Below are positions 2,036 through 17,156 of a DNA stretch of 20,361 bases, piece after piece. Under the pieces are notes generated by a model. It worked only from the letters and a program-made list of their open reading frames with translations, had not been told where the DNA came from and searched no databases. The position numbers and the translations under genes are program-made. How positions within the stretch are numbered: the first letter of the stretch is position 1; every line of letters begins with the position of its first letter. This DNA is from a virus. The stretch lies in IMG/VR virus record IMGVR_UViG_3300007708_000032, positions 1 to 20,361 of that record. The stretch is one strand, 5' to 3'.

Positions 2036-4525
2036 ATGGCAACCTCAAGTATGTCCCCTTCCCTAACACCTGCACCTATGGGGCTTGGGGCCATTATGGA
2101 TACTCTCGAAAACACTGAACCGGATTTGGAAATCGAAATTGAGAACCCGGACCGCGTGACGCTGGCAGATGGTAGCGTAGAGATTACGCTGATTCCAGAG
2201 CCCACCAAGGGTGAGGACTTTGGGGATAACCTCGCTGAGTTCATGGACGAGGGTGAGTTGACTACCCTCGCAGGTGACCTGCTGGCGCTGGTGGATGCCG
2301 ATATAAACTCCCGTAAGGACTGGGTTGACGCTTATGTGAAAGGCCTTGAGGTCTTGGGTATGAAGTACGACGAGCGTACAGAGCCTTGGAGTGGGGCGTG
2401 TGGCGTTTATTCCACAGTGCTGACAGAAGCGGCTATTCGGTTCCAAGCGGAGATGGTTACCGAGACGTTCCCCGCCGCAGGCCCGGTAAAAACTTCCATC
2501 GTGGGGGCCTCGACCAAGGATACGGAAGCGGCAGCCGCCCGGGTTCAGGAGGACATGAACTACCAGATTCTGGAGAAGATGCCTGAGTATCGGCCAGAGC
2601 ATGAGCGCATGTTGTTTAACCTCGGCCTGTCGGGTTCTGCCTTCAAGAAGGTGTACAACGACCCCTCACTGCGTAGGCAAGTGGCTCTGTTCGTACCTGC
2701 AGAAGATGTGATTATTCCTTACGGCGCGTCGAGTTCGCAGACCGCAGAGCGGGTTACGCATGTCATGCGCAAGACCGAGAACGAGGTTCGCAAGCTGCAG
2801 GTAGCGGGGTTCTACCGGGATATAGAGCTTGGTGATCCAGTACATATCACTACGGACGTTGAGAAGAAGAAAGCCGAAGAGCAGGGTTACAGCGTCACGG
2901 ACGACGACCGGTTCCAGTTGCTTGAGATTCACGTAGACTGGGACATGCCCGGGTACGAGGATGAGGACGGCATTGCATTGCCGTATGTGGTGACTATTGA
3001 GCGCGGCACCAGCGAAGTGCTGGCTATTCGCAGGAATTGGGAAGAAGACGACGTAACCAAGCTGAAACGTCAGCACTTCGTACAGTACACCTACATCCCC
3101 GGCTTCGGCGCTTATGGCTTCGGACTGGTTAACCTGATCGGCGGCTACGCCCGCGCAGGCACTTCCCTGATCCGTCAGTTGATTGACGCAGGTTCGCTGG
3201 CTAACTTGCCGGGTGGCTTGAAGGCTCGTGGCTTGCGCATCAAGGGCGACGACACTCCCATCGCTCCGGGCGAGTTCCGTGACGTGGATGTGGCTTCTGG
3301 GACCGTGCGTGACAACATCATGCCCCTGCCATACAAGGAGCCTAGCCAGACACTGCTGGCCTTGTTGAACCAGATTACCGACGAAGCCCGCCGCTTGGGC
3401 GCTATCAGTGACATGAAAATCGCTGACATGTCGGGCAACGCCCCGGTAGGTACAACGCTGGCGCTGTTGGAGCGCACGCTGAAGACCATGAGTGCTGTGC
3501 AGGCCCGGGTTCATGCGTCCATGAAGCAAGAGTTCAAGCTGCTGGCCGCGATCATTGGAGACAACGCTCCTGATGAGTATGAATACGACCCTGCTAAAGG
3601 CGACCGTAAAGCCAAGCGCGGCGACTACTCTATGGTGGAGGTTATCCCCGTCAGCGACCCCAACAGCACCACAATGGCGCAGCGGATCATGCAGTACCAA
3701 GCGGCTATTCAGTTGGCCCAAGGCGCTCCGCAGATTTACGACTTGCCTCAGTTGCACCGTCAGATGCTTGAAGTATTGGGTATCAAGAACGTTGAGAAGC
3801 TTGTGCCGGTTGACGATGACTTGAAGCCACGCGACCCGATCAGCGAGAACATGGCGTTCCTTAACGGTAAGCCAGTCAAGGCGTTCATCTACCAAGATCA
3901 CGACGCTCATATCGCTGTTCACACAACGTTTATGAAAGACCCCATGATTGGGCAGACGATGGGGCAGAACCCAATGGCGCAGCAAATGATGGCGGCGACG
4001 ATGGCGCATATCTCTGAGCACTTGGCCTTCGCATACCGCCGCAAGATCGAGGAGCAGATGGGCGTTACGATGCCCGCACCTGATTCAGAGTTGCCGGAGG
4101 ATGTGGAAGTTCAACTGGCCCGCCTGACCGCTCAAGCGGCTACGCAGTTGCTGCAGTTGAACATGGCACAGGCCCAACAGGCACAGGCCCAACAGGCGGC
4201 ACAAGACCCGATGATGCAACTCCAACAAGCCGAATTGCAACTCAAAGGCAAGGAAGTTGAGCTTAAGGGCCAGAAGATTCAGGGCGATCTGCAGATCAAG
4301 CAAGCGGAACTGCAACTCAAAGCGCAGGAAATGGCTAGCAAGCAGGGCGAGGACCCAGCGCTGGCTCAACAACGCCATGCTCAGACCATGCAGCAGACCC
4401 AGCAAGCCCACGAGCAACAGCTTACGCATGCGCAACAGACGCAGCAACAGAAGATGGCCGCAGCAGTTCAGGCCAACCAACTCAAGCAGCAGCTAGCGGC
4501 GCAGAAACCTAGGACACCAACATGA
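2036..4525 (+). CDS. Portal protein
   Basis: The 829-residue protein is placed directly after terL and has the features of long portal proteins of short-tailed phages. It would form the dodecameric ring at one capsid vertex through which DNA enters and leaves. After an acidic N-terminus (about 1-80) comes a conserved core (DWVDAYVKGLEVLG..., then the EPWSGACGVYSTVLTEAA region near residue 120) and a long helical region containing GYARAGTSLIRQLIDAG near 365-380, resembling the portal clip and stem. Residues about 690-829 are very rich in Gln and Ala with heptad-like repeats (QAELQLKGKEVELKGQKI), a probable coiled-coil tail. P22-type portals have a C-terminal helical barrel in this place, so this tail may do a similar job; that is inference. 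It ends in a 4-base ATGA overlap with the next gene. A very long open frame on the opposite strand is a codon-usage shadow. Confidence 0.9.
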   Translation: MATSSMSPSLTPAPMGLGAIMDTLENTEPDLEIEIENPDRVTLADGSVEITLIPEPTKGEDFGDNLAEFMDEGELTTLAGDLLALVDADINSRKDWVDAYVKGLEVLGMKYDERTEPWSGACGVYSTVLTEAAIRFQAEMVTETFPAAGPVKTSIVGASTKDTEAAAARVQEDMNYQILEKMPEYRPEHERMLFNLGLSGSAFKKVYNDPSLRRQVALFVPAEDVIIPYGASSSQTAERVTHVMRKTENEVRKLQVAGFYRDIELGDPVHITTDVEKKKAEEQGYSVTDDDRFQLLEIHVDWDMPGYEDEDGIALPYVVTIERGTSEVLAIRRNWEEDDVTKLKRQHFVQYTYIPGFGAYGFGLVNLIGGYARAGTSLIRQLIDAGSLANLPGGLKARGLRIKGDDTPIAPGEFRDVDVASGTVRDNIMPLPYKEPSQTLLALLNQITDEARRLGAISDMKIADMSGNAPVGTTLALLERTLKTMSAVQARVHASMKQEFKLLAAIIGDNAPDEYEYDPAKGDRKAKRGDYSMVEVIPVSDPNSTTMAQRIMQYQAAIQLAQGAPQIYDLPQLHRQMLEVLGIKNVEKLVPVDDDLKPRDPISENMAFLNGKPVKAFIYQDHDAHIAVHTTFMKDPMIGQTMGQNPMAQQMMAATMAHISEHLAFAYRRKIEEQMGVTMPAPDSELPEDVEVQLARLTAQAATQLLQLNMAQAQQAQAQQAAQDPMMQLQQAELQLKGKEVELKGQKIQGDLQIKQAELQLKAQEMASKQGEDPALAQQRHAQTMQQTQQAHEQQLTHAQQTQQQKMAAAVQANQLKQQLAAQKPRTPT

Positions 4526-8329: not shown

Positions 8330-8350
8330 TTTTTAGGCGTTCCTCATAGG

Positions 8351-8377
8351 GAAAGGGGCTTCGGCCCCTTTTCTTTT
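8351..8377 (+). terminator. Rho-independent terminator after capsid gene
   Basis: An eight-base-pair stem (8352-8359 with 8364-8371) closed by a UUCG tetraloop (core GGGGC-TTCG-GCCCC) is followed by a T-rich run (TCTTTT). It begins about 20 bases after the capsid stop and would end or attenuate the head-gene transcript. Confidence 0.88.
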
Positions 8378-8420: not shown

Positions 8421-9284
8421 ATGAGCATCATTTACGAAATTACCTGTATCGAAACTGGCAAGTTTTACATTGGTAGCACCATGAACAAAGCCCAACGGTG
8501 GGCCAGACATAGGCGAGAGCTAAGAGCCGGAATCCATGTAAACAAGCATATGCAAGCGGCATGGGCTAAATACGGCGAGGGAGCTTTTGAGTTTAAAGTC
8601 CTTGAAGAAGTGCAAACTCCGGCATTGTTATTTGCCGTAGAGCAGCGATACCTAGACAAGCATGTAGGAACCCCGCTTTGCTTCAACTGGTCTAAATATG
8701 CGGGCGCTCCTATGAGGGGCAAGTATGGGGCCGATACTCCTAACTTTGGGAAAGTACTGTCTGAGGAGGCAAAGCAAAAGCTGCGTATTGCCAATAGCGG
8801 TATAAAACACCCTAACTGGGGTAAAACTACTTCTGAGGTAACTAAGGCCAAAATATCGGAGGCTAACAAGACTAACCCGTGGAGGGGTAGCAAGCACACT
8901 CCTGAATCCATTGCAAAGATAGCCGCTGCTAGCACTGGACGTCCCGTATCGGAAGAGACCCGCTTGAAACGCTCGATAGCGCTCAAAGGGCGAGAGATAT
9001 CTACGGCGCAACGTTTACAGATATCACGTACCCTGTCCGGCGAGGGCAACTTCTGGTACGGCAAAGAACGCTCCGAAGAGTTTAAATCTCAGATACGAAA
9101 GGCGGTTGTAGTGACGGATTCCAAAGGCACTGAGACCGTTTACCCCAGTGTGCAAGCAGTACGAGAGGCGTTGCAACTTAAACCCCCTACAGTCAACCGG
9201 GCGCTAAAGTCCGGAACAACGTTAGTTCGTGGCCCACAAGCCGGATTAACGTTCAAATACCTTGCACCCACCCCCGCTTCCTGA
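8421..9284 (+). CDS. GIY-YIG homing endonuclease (GIY-YIG + NUMOD3 + NUMOD1)
   Basis: The 287-residue protein is a free-standing homing endonuclease that would cut a related phage genome lacking the gene and promote its own copying by repair. The N-terminal catalytic domain has IIY at 3-5, YIGS at 16-19, the catalytic-type Arg at R26 (RWARH) and Glu at E74, comparable to R27 and E75 of I-TevI. Residues about 105-225 hold NUMOD3-type repeats (SEEAKQKLRIANSG, SEETRLKRSIALKG), and the last 60 residues (VVTDSKG...YPSVQAVREAL...TVNRALKSG) look like a NUMOD1 DNA-binding segment. It sits between the capsid terminator and the promoter of the next gene. Its TGA stop forms part of that promoter. A CGGAG ribosome site precedes the ATG by six bases. 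Confidence 0.93.
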   Translation: MSIIYEITCIETGKFYIGSTMNKAQRWARHRRELRAGIHVNKHMQAAWAKYGEGAFEFKVLEEVQTPALLFAVEQRYLDKHVGTPLCFNWSKYAGAPMRGKYGADTPNFGKVLSEEAKQKLRIANSGIKHPNWGKTTSEVTKAKISEANKTNPWRGSKHTPESIAKIAAASTGRPVSEETRLKRSIALKGREISTAQRLQISRTLSGEGNFWYGKERSEEFKSQIRKAVVVTDSKGTETVYPSVQAVREALQLKPPTVNRALKSGTTLVRGPQAGLTFKYLAPTPAS

Positions 9285-11459: not shown

Positions 11460-11717
11460 GTGGACTACACCCTTAAATTTGCGTCTGAAGCGGGAGCTAC
11501 CTTGGTACTATATGCGGATGGCAAACCGGTATATCCAAACCTTGATACGCTAGGCACTATCTTCAAACCTACGGGCAAGACCGAAATTATCGAAGGGGTT
11601 GAAATTCCAGTGATGGCGGCGACCCCCGGATGGCACGTTAATGTACGCTGTGACGAGAGCCCAGCGCTTGGTAAATACGTAGTTGTAGCAACTACTCCTT
11701 CTAGGATATGGGCGTAA
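11460..11717 (+). CDS. Small hypothetical protein after spike gene
   Basis: The 85-residue product starts with GTG at 11460, two bases after the stop of the spike gene, with no clear ribosome site, so it is probably translated by coupling. It has an alternating beta-like pattern (YTLKFASEAGATLVLYADGKPVYP) and a WHVNVRC segment near 60-66. I do not recognise the family. Adjacent position suggests a companion of the spike fibre, such as a fibre chaperone or an accessory virion subunit, but nothing in the sequence proves this. Confidence 0.65.
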   Translation: MDYTLKFASEAGATLVLYADGKPVYPNLDTLGTIFKPTGKTEIIEGVEIPVMAATPGWHVNVRCDESPALGKYVVVATTPSRIWA

Positions 11718-12305: not shown

Positions 12306-12655
12306 TGCCTTCTTCGACTATAAAGCAACATAATTTCATGGCGGCAATCGCCAAGAATCCTGCCTTTGCCAAGAAGGCCGGTGTCCCTCAGTCCGTAGGG
12401 GCTGATTTTATCAAGGCCGATACCGGTCGTAAATTTGCAAAAGGTGGTGAGACTATGGCTACAAAGAAAGCGATGCCCAAGGGCATGTTCGGTGATAAGG
12501 GCGCACTAGCGAAGCACGCGGCTAAACCCGCGTCCAAAGCGCACGCTGGCCTCAAAGCCGGGGGCATGACCAAGATGGCTAAAGGCGGCGGAGTGGAGTC
12601 TAAGGGTAAAACCAAGGGCACAATGATTAAAATGGCTGGCGGAGGTAAATGCTAA
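12305..12655 (+). CDS. Small basic AKGG-motif protein, possibly two joined modules
   Basis: The 116-residue product starts with GTG at 12305, overlapping the previous stop. The first part (residues 1-48: KQHNFMAAIAKNPAFAKKAGVPQSVG..., ending KFAKGG) is a common small phage protein pattern. The second part, from M51 on, is Lys/Gly/Ala-rich (MATKKAMPKGMFGDKG... KMAKGGGV... SKGKTKG...GGGKC). M51 at 12455 is preceded by AAGGTGGTGAG and could be an internal start, giving a 66-residue protein. The net charge is strongly positive. Function is unknown; DNA or capsid-interior contact is a guess from charge. Its last codons carry the GGAGG ribosome site of the next gene. Confidence 0.72.
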   Translation: MPSSTIKQHNFMAAIAKNPAFAKKAGVPQSVGADFIKADTGRKFAKGGETMATKKAMPKGMFGDKGALAKHAAKPASKAHAGLKAGGMTKMAKGGGVESKGKTKGTMIKMAGGGKC

Positions 12656-12945
12656 TGGACCGCCCTTCCAAACAAGAAATTGACGATCTGCGTAAGCAGG
12701 CCCTTATGGATGCCGCATATGAGGCGTCAATGCGCAATACTCCTCCCGCGCCAATGCGGCCCGCCTCCGCGCCTAGGGCTAAAGCACAGTCTGCTGCTGT
12801 TACAGAGATGCTTCAGGAAGCCCAAGACGCTAAGGCCCGCAAGAAAATTTCGGCTATGGGGTACGCTAAAGGCGGTTCTGTTAGTGCTTCCAAACGTGCT
12901 GACGGCTGCGCCACCAAGGGCAAGACCCGGGGCAAAATGCTGTGA
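12655..12945 (+). CDS. Small AKGG-motif protein
   Basis: The 96-residue protein has an N-terminal helical charged part (SKQEIDDLRKQALMDAAYEASM), an Ala/Pro-rich linker, a helix (VTEMLQEAQDAKARKKIS) and a basic glycine-containing tail: YAKGGSV at 70-76, SASKRADGCATKGKTRGKML at 77-96. ATG 12655 is chosen over ATG 12649 because GGAGG at 12641-12645 is nine bases from it and only three from the other. The tail SxSKRADGxAxKGKTxG recurs in small proteins of environmental phages as I recall them. Function unknown. It overlaps the next gene by four bases (GTGA). Confidence 0.72.
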   Translation: MDRPSKQEIDDLRKQALMDAAYEASMRNTPPAPMRPASAPRAKAQSAAVTEMLQEAQDAKARKKISAMGYAKGGSVSASKRADGCATKGKTRGKML

Positions 12946-13163
12946 GACCTAGCCGCGGACTGGGAGCTATGCTCGCGTCCAAAATGCCTAAGGCAAAGCG
13001 AACGAAGCGCCGGGATGATACCGACTTTGAGACCTTTGCCGAAGGCGGCACTGTGGGGCTGTGGGACAACATCAACGCCAAGCGAAAGCGCGGGGCCAAG
13101 ATGCGCAAGCCCGGGTCTCCCGGTGCTCCGACTGACAAAGCATTTAAAGATTCGGCCAAATAA
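12942..13163 (+). CDS. Small basic protein with FAEGG motif
   Basis: The 73-residue product starts with GTG at 12942 inside the stop of the previous gene. It is highly basic at both ends (KMPKAKRTKRR, 14-24; NAKRKRGAKMRKPG, 45-58), with a central FAEGGTVGLWDNI (32-44) and a C-terminal GAPTDKAFKDSAK. The combination of a [FY]A[KE]GG motif and an INAKRKR...MRKPG block matches a recurring small protein type in environmental phages that I recognise only as a pattern. It may bind DNA or RNA or be packaged in the virion; no direct evidence. It is the last gene before the intergenic region carrying the second GIY-YIG gene's promoter. Confidence 0.7.
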   Translation: MRPSRGLGAMLASKMPKAKRTKRRDDTDFETFAEGGTVGLWDNINAKRKRGAKMRKPGSPGAPTDKAFKDSAK

Positions 13164-13171
13164 TGACTACC

Positions 13172-13199
13172 TTGGGGGGTGGGTTCTTTGTGATATAGT
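13172..13199 (+). promoter_or_regulatory. Candidate extended -10 promoter of second GIY-YIG gene
   Basis: TGA followed by TATAGT (13191-13199) is a good extended -10. A weak -35-like TTGGGG (13172-13177) lies 16 bases upstream. Transcription would start near 13206, inside the 5' arm of the hairpin at 13200-13235, about 20 bases before the ATG at 13225. Confidence 0.55.
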
Positions 13200-13235
13200 A
13201 CCCCGTACACACTTGAAAGCACGTATGTACGGGGT
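13200..13235 (+). promoter_or_regulatory. Translation-control hairpin covering GIY-YIG start codon
   Basis: ACCCCGTACA (13200-13209) and TGTACGGGGT (13226-13235) are perfect reverse complements, giving a ten-base-pair stem with a 16-base loop. The loop holds the weak GAAAG ribosome site (13215-13219) and the stem holds two bases of the ATG at 13225. Transcripts reading through from upstream would contain both arms, whereas transcripts from the promoter at 13172-13199 would start within the 5' arm and could not form the full stem. T4 I-TevI is controlled in this way; the same role here is inference. Confidence 0.6.
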
Positions 13236-14091
13236 TATTTACAAAATTACAAACACTACAAACGGCCATTTCTACATAGGCCAGACTAAGATGCAGTTGG
13301 CGTCACGGTGGTCGAAACACAAACAAGACGCTAGAGCGGGCAAGGGGTGGGTATTAGCCGCCGCAATCCGCAAGTACGGGGCCGATGCGTTTACCCATGA
13401 AGTGATTGATAGTTGTGCGGATAGGGGCGCGCTTAATCTCGCGGAGATACGCTACATTGAGACCTTAAAACCACAATACAATTCCTGTGCTGGGGGCGGC
13501 GGGTTAGGTAGTCCAACGCAAGCAGTTCGACAGAAAATATCTGCCGCTATGAAAGGGCGGCTAACATCTGCGGGTACACGCGCAAGAATGTCGGCAGCGC
13601 AAAAAGGGCATTTCGTATCCCCAGAAACAACCGCTAAGATTCAAGCCGCGTTAAAGCCACGCTACCTTGCTATGCGTAATCTACGCATCCTAAAAAACGG
13701 TACCGCCGCTCGTGTTCGGATGCCTCGCGCCTACGTTAGCCCCCTTGCGGGTGTCTATGCGGCAGCAGGGGTCACTGAGAAGAACGCAAAGATTGCTCTG
13801 GCGGCTAGGTTGGGGTATGAAACAGGAACGCGGATACGGCCTATAGGCGAGAAGAACGCAATGTATGGAGTCCCCCGGTCAGAAACAACTAAAGCCTTGC
13901 TATCCATAGAAAATACGGGCGACGGTAACCCGTTTTATGGTATGTTGCATACAGAAGATACGCGTGATAAGATGCGAAAAGCCCACGCTTCGCGTGCCCC
14001 GGTAACCTGCCCACACTGCGGCAAGGTAGGCCACGTAAACGCTATGAAACGATGGCATTTTAAGAATTGCAGGGACCAAAATGGCAACTAG
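13225..14091 (+). CDS. GIY-YIG homing endonuclease with C-terminal zinc finger
   Basis: The start is set at ATG 13225, giving 288 residues; the frame extends upstream to 13015 but that part overlaps the previous gene and has no domain sense. The catalytic domain shows GVIY (3-6), YIG (17-19), R28 (RWSKH) and E74, so the key residues are intact. NUMOD3-type repeats follow (VRQKISAAMKGR, TRARMSAAQKG, ETTAKIQAAL; later SETTKALLSIENTG and TRDKMRKAH). The C-terminus has a zinc-finger-like CxxC...HxxxC set at C262, C265, H278 and C282 within a CPHCGK...RWHFKNC block common in phage endonucleases. It lies between the small basic genes and an adaptor-like gene, overlapping the latter by 11 bases without disrupting it. 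Confidence 0.9.
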   Translation: MYGVIYKITNTTNGHFYIGQTKMQLASRWSKHKQDARAGKGWVLAAAIRKYGADAFTHEVIDSCADRGALNLAEIRYIETLKPQYNSCAGGGGLGSPTQAVRQKISAAMKGRLTSAGTRARMSAAQKGHFVSPETTAKIQAALKPRYLAMRNLRILKNGTAARVRMPRAYVSPLAGVYAAAGVTEKNAKIALAARLGYETGTRIRPIGEKNAMYGVPRSETTKALLSIENTGDGNPFYGMLHTEDTRDKMRKAHASRAPVTCPHCGKVGHVNAMKRWHFKNCRDQNGN

Positions 14092-14773
14092 TGGCACGAC
14101 AGCTTTTAACTTAGACCTGACGGAACTGGTAGAAGAAGCGTACTCCCGTTGCGGGGCAGAGCTTAGGACCGGCTGGGATTTACGCACTGCCCGTATTTCG
14201 TTAAACCTGATGTTCGCAGACTGGTCGAATCGCGGTATCAATCTCTGGACTGTGGAGCAAGGGTCGATCCCTCTTGTAGCAGGCACGGCTACGTACGATC
14301 TGCCGGATAACACTGTGGACTTGATGGAACATGTTATCCGTACAGGTGCAGGGAGCGCCTCTACGCAGGCTGATCTGACGATTACGCGCATTAGTGTCTC
14401 CACCTATGCCACACTGCCTAACAAGCTGACCCAAGCACGGCCTATTCAGGTCTACATTAACAGGCAAGCCCCTACCCCCACGATAACCGTGTGGCCGGTC
14501 CCAGATGCCGCGCAGGCCTATACCTTCGTGTACTGGCGGCTCAAGCGTATTCAGGATGCTGGAAGTGGTAGCAATACGATGGCGGTGCCGTTCCGGTTCC
14601 TCCCCTGCATGGTAGCGGGGCTGGCGTATTACCTGTCCATGAAAGTTCCCGGGGCGATAGACCGTATGCAGGCCTTGAAAGAGCAGTATGATGAGGCATG
14701 GGATTTGGCTTCCTCCGAAGATAGGGACCGCTCCGCAGTCCGTTTTGTACCGCGTCAGATGTTCCTCGGGTAG
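14081..14773 (+). CDS. Head-tail adaptor-like protein (first of two)
   Basis: The 230-residue protein has a helical N-terminus (LDLTELVEEAYSRCGAEL..TARISLNLMFADWSNRG, about 11-52), a beta segment (LVAGTATYDLPDNTVDLMEHVIR), a ...TITVWPVPD turn and a C-terminal helical bundle (LAYYLSMKVPGAIDRMQALKEQYDEAWDLA). This layout of helices, strands and helices is that of proteins docking under the portal, such as P22 gp4/T7 gp11-like tail accessory or SU10-type adaptors. It has an AGGGA site before its ATG, which lies inside the end of the GIY-YIG gene. The exact subtype cannot be fixed by eye. Confidence 0.6.
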   Translation: MATSGTTAFNLDLTELVEEAYSRCGAELRTGWDLRTARISLNLMFADWSNRGINLWTVEQGSIPLVAGTATYDLPDNTVDLMEHVIRTGAGSASTQADLTITRISVSTYATLPNKLTQARPIQVYINRQAPTPTITVWPVPDAAQAYTFVYWRLKRIQDAGSGSNTMAVPFRFLPCMVAGLAYYLSMKVPGAIDRMQALKEQYDEAWDLASSEDRDRSAVRFVPRQMFLG

Positions 14774-14776
14774 GCT

Positions 14777-15457
14777 ATGCCGCATAAAGACCCTCTAATT
14801 GCAGCAGCTTGTAAACGGGCGTACTACTTGGCGCATAAGGACCAATGGCGTGTTAGTAACGCCAAGAGTAAAGCTAAACTACAGCAAGCAACTGCTATTA
14901 AAAAGTTGGCTGCAACCCTTGTACTGAAGCCAATAGAGGCGAAATTTTGTTTGGATTGCGCTATAGATATTACCGCCGTGTACAAGGCTAAACATGGGTT
15001 GCATTGCTTAGAGTGCGTAGCAAAATATAATAAGGCGTATCGTGAGGCTCATGCGACACGCATAGCAGCGCAAAAGCTAAGTTGGAAGCTTGAAAACAAA
15101 GAACACGTAGAAGCAAAATCTAGGCTGTACTCTTTGGCAAACCCAGACAAAAAAACCGCAGCCCGTAAAAAATGGAGCGCCGCTAATCCGGGGAAAGACA
15201 ACGCATCAAAGAAGCTAAACTCGGAAGCCCGACGAAAAAGGGTTCCGACATGGCTATCAGAGGATGATATTTGGATGATTGAGCAAGCTTATGAGCTTGC
15301 AGCGTTGCGGACTGCAATGTTTGGCTTTTCTTGGCATGTGGACCATGTGATCCCCCTCTGCGGTAAAAAAGTTTCCGGTTTACATACGCCGTACAACCTA
15401 CAAGTCATCCCAGCCATAGAAAACTTACGCAAGAGCAATAGAGTGGAGCTTGCATAA
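14777..15457 (+). CDS. HNH homing endonuclease with zinc-binding motifs
   Basis: The 226-residue product carries an HNH-type nuclease motif at its C-terminus: WHVDHVIPL (H187, D189, H190), PYNLQVIP with N207, and ENLRKSNR with N216 and N221, so the last catalytic position is Asn (an H-N-N variant). Upstream a CxxC-x15-CxxC set (C58, C61, C77, C80) probably binds zinc, and about 90-160 is basic and helical with KSRLYSLANPDKK-type repeats (NUMOD-like). It is free-standing and lies three bases after the adaptor-like gene, with its stop overlapping the next ATG by one base. The region is visibly more A-rich than the structural genes around it, in line with acquisition. Confidence 0.88.
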   Translation: MPHKDPLIAAACKRAYYLAHKDQWRVSNAKSKAKLQQATAIKKLAATLVLKPIEAKFCLDCAIDITAVYKAKHGLHCLECVAKYNKAYREAHATRIAAQKLSWKLENKEHVEAKSRLYSLANPDKKTAARKKWSAANPGKDNASKKLNSEARRKRVPTWLSEDDIWMIEQAYELAALRTAMFGFSWHVDHVIPLCGKKVSGLHTPYNLQVIPAIENLRKSNRVELA

Positions 15458-16236: not shown

Positions 16237-16434
16237 ATGGCATTCACCAAGAAGATGATGGGCAAGGAAGTTGGCGCAGCCTCTGTATATGCAAAGCCTC
16301 ATACAGGCTCTGTTGCGGGCGTAGACTTGACCAATAACGGCTACCCGCAGACGGGCATTAAAACCACGGGTACCAAGACTCGCGGTAACGGCGCAGCTAC
16401 AAAGGGCGTGACCGCCCGAGGACCGATGGCATGA
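16237..16434 (+). CDS. Small basic glycine-rich protein
   Basis: This 65-residue protein has no acidic cluster and many Lys, Gly and Thr residues (MAFTKKMMGKEVG..., then TGIKTTGTKTRGNGAATKGVTARG). It resembles the other small basic proteins at 11720-13163 in composition but lacks the AKGG motif. It is preceded by its own promoter candidate and an AAAGGAG ribosome site eight bases from the ATG, so it is probably expressed strongly. Its stop overlaps the start of the third GIY-YIG gene by four bases. Function unknown; it could be a virion-interior DNA-binding protein. Confidence 0.65.
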   Translation: MAFTKKMMGKEVGAASVYAKPHTGSVAGVDLTNNGYPQTGIKTTGTKTRGNGAATKGVTARGPMA

Positions 16435-17156
16435 ACTACGAGGGTGCGGGCTATGTTTACGCTATTAGGAACCGTGTAAACGGCCATGCGTACATTGGCA
16501 GCACAAAGGGCTACAAGGCTAGGTGGCACACACACCGTAGTGCCTTACGCCGAAAGGTCCATCATTCGTTTATATTGCAGCGAGCTTGGGACAAGCATGG
16601 GGAAGATGCTTTTGAGTTTAAAATTCTTTTAGTTTGCCCCCTTGAACTTAGGATATTCTACGAAACTAGGCTAATGGCGTTAGAAACCTATAACGTACTC
16701 CGAACTCCTAAGGAAATTGGGGTTCGGGGGGGCTGGACACACTCGGAAGAATTTAAGTCGAAGATGTCCATGTTGCATAAAGGAAAAGCACTGTCGGCGG
16801 AGCATAAAGCTAAGCTATCAGACGCGGCTACGGGACGAGTTTATAGTGAGGCGTTTAGAGCACAGGCGCGTGCTAGGCAGCGGGGGGTGGTACCCTCAGA
16901 GCAAACCAAAACAAAACTAAGTGCAGCGCGTACAGGGTATATAGTGTCCTTGGAGACCCGCAACAAGCTAGCGCGTAGCGCAGCGCAGCGCAGTATCGTT
17001 ACTGCCGGTATATCTATGGATAGAATTAGGTCAGTACAACCGTTGATTGAAGCGGGCGCCTCAGTACGTTGTGCGATAAAGTCTATAGGAATGTCCTCAG
17101 CTACCTATTACAAATATTGTACACAGCTTGCCCTCCAACCTAAGGAACTTGTATGA
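16431..17156 (+). CDS. GIY-YIG homing endonuclease with C-terminal helix-turn-helix
   Basis: The 241-residue product has YVY at 8-10, YIGS at 21-24, R31 (RWHTH) and E78 in FYETRL, the usual GIY-YIG catalytic set. NUMOD3-type repeats cover about 100-185 (SEEFKSKMSMLHKG, SAEHKAKLSDAATG, SEQTKTKLSAARTG, SLETRNKLARSA). The C-terminal 45 residues (IRSVQPLIEAGASVRCAIKSIG-type, ending MSSATYYKY) look like a resolvase-style helix-turn-helix, giving a third kind of DNA-binding end among the three GIY-YIG proteins of this window. It starts with a GAGGA box and overlaps both neighbours by four bases (ATGA), so it sits very neatly in the intergenic space. Confidence 0.9.
   Translation: MNYEGAGYVYAIRNRVNGHAYIGSTKGYKARWHTHRSALRRKVHHSFILQRAWDKHGEDAFEFKILLVCPLELRIFYETRLMALETYNVLRTPKEIGVRGGWTHSEEFKSKMSMLHKGKALSAEHKAKLSDAATGRVYSEAFRAQARARQRGVVPSEQTKTKLSAARTGYIVSLETRNKLARSAAQRSIVTAGISMDRIRSVQPLIEAGASVRCAIKSIGMSSATYYKYCTQLALQPKELV

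Follow-up and report, generated by a model that had tools for sequence, protein, structure and literature searches.

The window, a stretch of DNA of 20.4 kb from an uncultured phage, carries on its plus strand an intact gene for a free-standing homing endonuclease of 288 aa (13225-14091), surrounded by phage structural genes (terminase, portal, capsid and adaptor). The product has GIY-YIG (PF01541, 3.7e-08) and NUMOD3 (PF07460, 2.1e-14) domains, both above the Pfam cut-off, and matches phrog_314 of the PHROGs collection (1.6e-35). An alternative in-frame ATG is found at 13015; the ATG at 13225 was taken as the start because the N terminus specified from there, MYGVIYK, is invariant in nine aligned homologues. 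About 15 distinct relatives of the endonuclease, roughly 44-70% identical, were identified in viral contigs. They occupy the same place, just upstream of an adaptor gene whose first bases overlap the endonuclease gene's 3' end; in the window this is a SU10-type adaptor (14081-14773, plus strand; Pfam SU10_adaptor), and its relatives in named phages include those of DSL-LC04, Pelagibacter phage HTVC023P and Roseobacter phages CRP-901/902. A blastn search against annotated phages gave no match. Two groups of family members are referred to below as clade A (the window, L004, L009, L053 and L050) and clade B (L026, L052, L056-L058, L065 and L066). Several members are near-duplicates, and the family does not therefore amount to fifteen independent tests. 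The endonucleases of L057 and L058 are 77% identical while the adaptor proteins encoded downstream are 100% identical, a contrast which, read from the sequences, suggests recombination or co-conversion at the target gene.

The insertion can be read by comparison with uninterrupted adaptor loci. In the empty site L125, whose adaptor and upstream gene are 87% and 84% identical to those of the window, the stop of the upstream gene runs directly into the adaptor start (TAATGACTACCTCAGGC); in the window, TAATGACTACCT is followed by cassette sequence. A relic of the adaptor's original start, ATGACTACCT (13163-13172, plus strand), is identical to the uninterrupted start in L125, the left edge of the cassette falls at about 13172/13173, and the adaptor start has been re-made at the cassette's 3' end. 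The adaptor start is also uninterrupted in L132 (the empty site for clade B), L128 (for L004) and L126 (for L003), so that the insertion site is conserved, and longer relics of it can be read on the left flank of L050, L053 and L063. By these comparisons, the element is a free-standing gene inserted at the adaptor's first codons, with no intron, and its -35 region (see below) is partly dependent on the insertion site. Neither the -10 box nor the hairpin described below is present in the empty sites L125, L126, L128 and L132, indicating that both arrived with the mobile gene; they are absent as well from a deletion relic, L141. The latter (2980-3080) retains only the last codons of the endonuclease gene (MKRWHFDNCRSK) before the adaptor start, box and hairpin having been lost.

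The preliminary description of this DNA had placed at the endonuclease start an extended -10 element followed by a ten-base perfect inverted repeat, with the ATG at the base of the 3' arm and a ribosome site in the loop. The first two features were confirmed in the sequence. The element TGA-TATAGT (13191-13199, plus strand) directly precedes the 5' arm ACCCCGTACA (13200-13209), the perfect complement of the 3' arm TGTACGGGGT (13226-13235); the start codon is 13225-13227, with the U and G of the AUG inside the 3' arm, which extends over codons 2-4. The ribosome site does lie in the loop but is weak in the window copy (GAAAG, 13215-13219), though a clear GGAG stands at the same place in most clade A relatives. 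Within the window this is the sole perfect inverted repeat of at least 10 bp with a loop of 3-40 nt. Shuffled windows contain about 0.6 such repeats on average and, by simple arithmetic, about 0.04 would be expected to touch any of the approximately 28 gene starts. The 36-nt hairpin has a predicted folding energy of -18.7 kcal/mol (z = -4.3), equalled by none of 200 shuffles.

Promoter-like signals in the window copy are modest. The -35-like hexamer TTGGGG (13172-13177, plus strand) matches the consensus at three of six positions and stands 16 nt from the -10 element, and a consensus promoter scan of the window did not list this promoter because of its poor -35. Nor is the -10 element alone above chance, TGNTATNNT being seen five times in the window against 7.8 expected. 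The call of a putative promoter in the window is one that rests on relatives. In all 15 family members compared, a -10 box lies 25-29 nt before the ATG; it reads TATNNT in 14 of them (GATCAT in L056) and is kept although conservation upstream of it is poor. Clade B members have TATCAT as the box (GATCAT in L056) and, 17 bases upstream of it, TTGACA or a near match, a consensus promoter by sequence. A more distant pair, L061/L062 (45% identical), has no -10 box. The family's boxes (TATAGT, TATAAT, TATACT, TATCAT and GATCAT, plus the TTGACA of clade B) do not fit the T4 late promoter TATAAATA. A search that detects T7's own polymerase gave no T7-type enzyme in five related contigs of 60-67 kb, which may be incomplete. 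With the usual sigma70 spacing, transcription would be predicted to start at the sixth to eighth base after the -10 element (13205-13207, plus strand). The conserved position of the -10 box would fit an RNA lacking the 5' arm.

The leaders of the relatives fall into several layouts. In the clade A leaders, ACCC[A/C]GTAC comes after the -10 box and forms a helix with ATGTACGGGGT in the coding start; the loop contains the ribosome site. In clade B, the box is followed by ACCC[A/G]GACC (GATC in L056), complementary to GGTCTGG just 5' of the ATG; the CAU of the -10 box is able to pair with the AUG as well. L003 and L048 have a 5' arm AGCCCC in a slipped register that leaves the start codon in the loop, and L063 shows a third, weaker arrangement. 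Outside these genes, the box-plus-arm motif gave scattered matches only, none with such a leader. By direct counts, 85.9% of the cells in clade A and 97.6% of those in clade B are paired, values that drop to at most 61% and 44% when the arms are slid. The 5' arms of clade B are predicted to pair with clade B starts at a mean of -13.0 kcal/mol and with clade A starts at -7.2 kcal/mol; those of clade A pair with the starts of both clades (-14.1 and -12.1 kcal/mol), the coding start being the same in clade B. Because the clade B start region is G-rich, a test by shuffling individual 5' arms is of little power there. Compensatory changes between the arms, which the preliminary description had proposed to look for, thus take the form of a whole helix replaced between clades; pairwise covariation within clades A and B was not significant, lying not clearly above shuffles. 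The comparative support, as judged from these alignments, is a conserved position together with a replaced helix and not classical covariation.

Folding predictions indicate how such a helix would act on the start. In the window, opening the region from -14 to +15 would cost 21.8 kcal/mol in read-through RNA and 9.3 kcal/mol in an RNA starting 19 nt before the ATG. Among 286 control genes from adaptor loci (mean difference 1.4, 99th percentile 7.1), only one reaches the resulting difference of 12.4. On this measure twelve of the 15 family members rank within the top 2.1%, the exceptions being L052 (5.6%), L048 and L063. Over the narrower region from -14 to +5, with the same 19-base truncation, the difference in the window is 5.5, a value reached by 3% of controls, and the effect vanishes in L003 and L048, whose pairing there covers codons 2-4 only. 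A count of the bases that pair with sequence 5' of the predicted start does not single out clade A, because the clade A AUG pairs just downstream of that position. Folding and accessibility together predict that the hairpin sequesters the start in RNA begun upstream. A large opening-cost difference (7.3 kcal/mol) is also predicted for a small gene at 11708, whose start codon choice is uncertain.

These data support the I-TevI-like promoter-in-hairpin anatomy advanced in the preliminary description: homologues retain it, it travels with the mobile gene, and folding models predict that it closes the start strongly in read-through RNA only. We consider it likely, from the comparisons and the folding models, that the gene's own promoter lies within the start-codon hairpin, silencing read-through RNA and freeing the gene's own RNA. 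A cassette of about 0.9 kb (13173-14080), inserted at the adaptor's first codons, would have brought its own expression switch. In RNA that continues from the structural genes upstream, the 5' arm would pair with the start region and keep translation from initiating. Transcription by RNA polymerase carrying a sigma70-type factor would begin at about 13205-13207; the resulting mRNA would therefore be without the -10 box and without most of the 5' arm (13200-13209), leaving the start open. The promoter sequence itself would act as a tag present in read-through RNA only. Promoter activity, start site, read-through, the effect on translation and the benefit are the conjectural parts of this scheme; the presumed benefit is that the enzyme is kept low while the structural operon is strongly transcribed. 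Weighing against it, besides the poor -35 and Shine-Dalgarno sequence of the window copy, are the want of significant covariation within clades, the L003 and L048 hairpins with the start codon in their loop, the weak L063 arrangement and the missing box of L061/L062.

The weak signals of the window copy could also mean that the hairpin simply imposes constant poor translation, little protein being made from read-through RNA, and that the -10-like box is no working promoter, at least here. A poor -35, a weak Shine-Dalgarno sequence and a -10 not above chance in the window are what one would expect, but the near-constant distance of the box from the ATG in relatives, the consensus -35 at 17 nt in clade B and the persistence of the box within otherwise unconserved upstream sequence make this explanation rather unlikely. 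Since the repeat adjoins the -10 box, it might instead be a DNA operator at which a dimeric repressor, or the endonuclease itself, shuts the overlapping promoter, as I-TevI does as an autorepressor on such a site (PMC2988022). Arm sequence and spacing, however, differ between the clades despite homologous proteins, and among nine members none has a leader resembling the adaptor start; local alignments made with the re-made adaptor start as a stand-in for the homing site were no better than shuffles, and a homing-site-like operator was rejected on these grounds. Such findings would leave room for an unrelated repressor or for a further level of control, yet an operator as the reason for the repeat seems improbable.

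That the arrangement is accidental, the MYGV coding start being fixed by protein function and its upstream complement a coincidence, gains some plausibility from the 0.6 repeats expected in a window of this size. We regard it as very improbable given the far lower expectation at gene starts, the retention of the complement in clade A and its replacement by another helix in clade B. A strong intergenic hairpin could finally be a transcription terminator or an RNA-processing site between the two genes. The stem is followed by no U run, is absent from the terminator scan and has no Rfam match, and a terminator here would cut off the downstream adaptor gene; this reading is barely tenable. An Rfam RNA was likewise rejected for the interval 12600-14400, where no Rfam match was obtained, as was a tRNA.

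A promoter within the start-codon hairpin would be of the same kind as the control described for T-even endonucleases. With I-TevI, a hairpin sequesters the ribosome site in RNA started upstream, and RNA from a nearby promoter lacks the hairpin-forming sequence (PMC2988022). The same logic is described for I-TevI, I-TevII, I-TevIII, segB and mobE, all from T4-related phages (PMC2988022, PMC3014915). T4 genes e, soc and 49 also have sequestering helices over the start region (PMC2988022, PMC3014915), and closer-starting transcripts of gene e lack the 5' part of the helix (PMC3014915). Like I-TevI, I-TevII and I-TevIII, the present element belongs to a phage homing endonuclease gene, and it would share with them a hairpin in upstream-started RNA and a nearby promoter. 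Those genes, however, lie in group I introns under T4 middle or late promoters, whereas the present one is free-standing in a structural operon with a sigma70-like box. Its 3' arm, unlike that of I-TevI, extends into the coding sequence. Nor is it an I-TevI system in the strict sense: neither an intron nor an operator resembling the homing site, such as I-TevI possesses, was found. In architecture the closest cases are segB of T4 and mobE of Aeromonas phage Aeh1, free-standing genes whose sequestering hairpins are predicted or have been shown (PMC2988022, PMC3014915); these reside in T-even phages with T-even promoters, whereas here the genomes are of podophage type, the element travels with its gene, and the homologues have at least two different helices. 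Genes e, soc and 49 resemble it in having the start region sequestered in an RNA helix but are resident genes with T4 late promoters, whereas the gene studied here is mobile. What is new is the combination of a free-standing gene, a putative sigma70-like promoter, carriage on the cassette and interchangeable helices. No example outside T4-like phages was found in the open-access literature, to which the survey was confined.

The timing of the switch may also differ. RNA-seq of HTVC027P, an HTVC023P-type phage, sorted its genes into early, middle and late classes, and the same paper describes the late clusters of phages in general as genes for morphogenesis and lysis (PMC12753301). If the HTVC027P pattern holds here, structural read-through would be late and the sigma70 promoter possibly early, and the order would therefore be the reverse of that of I-TevI; the analogy suggests an early promoter and late, silent read-through.

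Other GIY-YIG genes give a varied picture. Two more lie in the same 20 kb (8421-9284 and 16431-17156), along with an endonuclease VII-like gene (14777-15457), and no comparable hairpin was found at either GIY-YIG gene. The one at 16431 overlaps the preceding gene; the leader of that at 8421 folds no better than shuffles, with a moderately high accessibility difference (5.4). The 8421 gene stands behind a terminator-like hairpin (8348-8375), perhaps another way of limiting read-through. A comparable layout, built with other arms, occurs at a different GIY-YIG gene, whose copies in L354/L085 and L355 are 77% identical: in L354 and L355 (2420-2530 in each), the -35/-10 spacer of a sigma70-like promoter includes a 5' arm able to pair with the start region, and the two differ in the arms they use. 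In L355, where the promoter-like sequence reads TTGACA-17-TATAAT, the spacer contains ATGCAACCT and the early codons AGGTTGCAT; L354 has GCCGTT/AACGGC, the 3' arm lying just 5' of the ATG. This layout was spotted while inspecting controls and is thus a lead rather than a test.

From the sequences compared, the promoter-in-hairpin arrangement known from T4 appears in several redesigned forms in phages unrelated to the T4-like ones. We tentatively propose, as a possibility somewhat short of a probability, that the sigma70-type version is a portable, repeatedly evolved module of free-standing phage endonucleases outside T4-like phages, silent in structural read-through and expressed early. If true, a form of control so far described for a few T-even endonucleases would be a general solution for mobile genes in foreign operons. 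Endonuclease genes could then land in structural operons and yet stay silent in read-through mRNA, the control travelling with the mobile gene and different helices being built to the same end.
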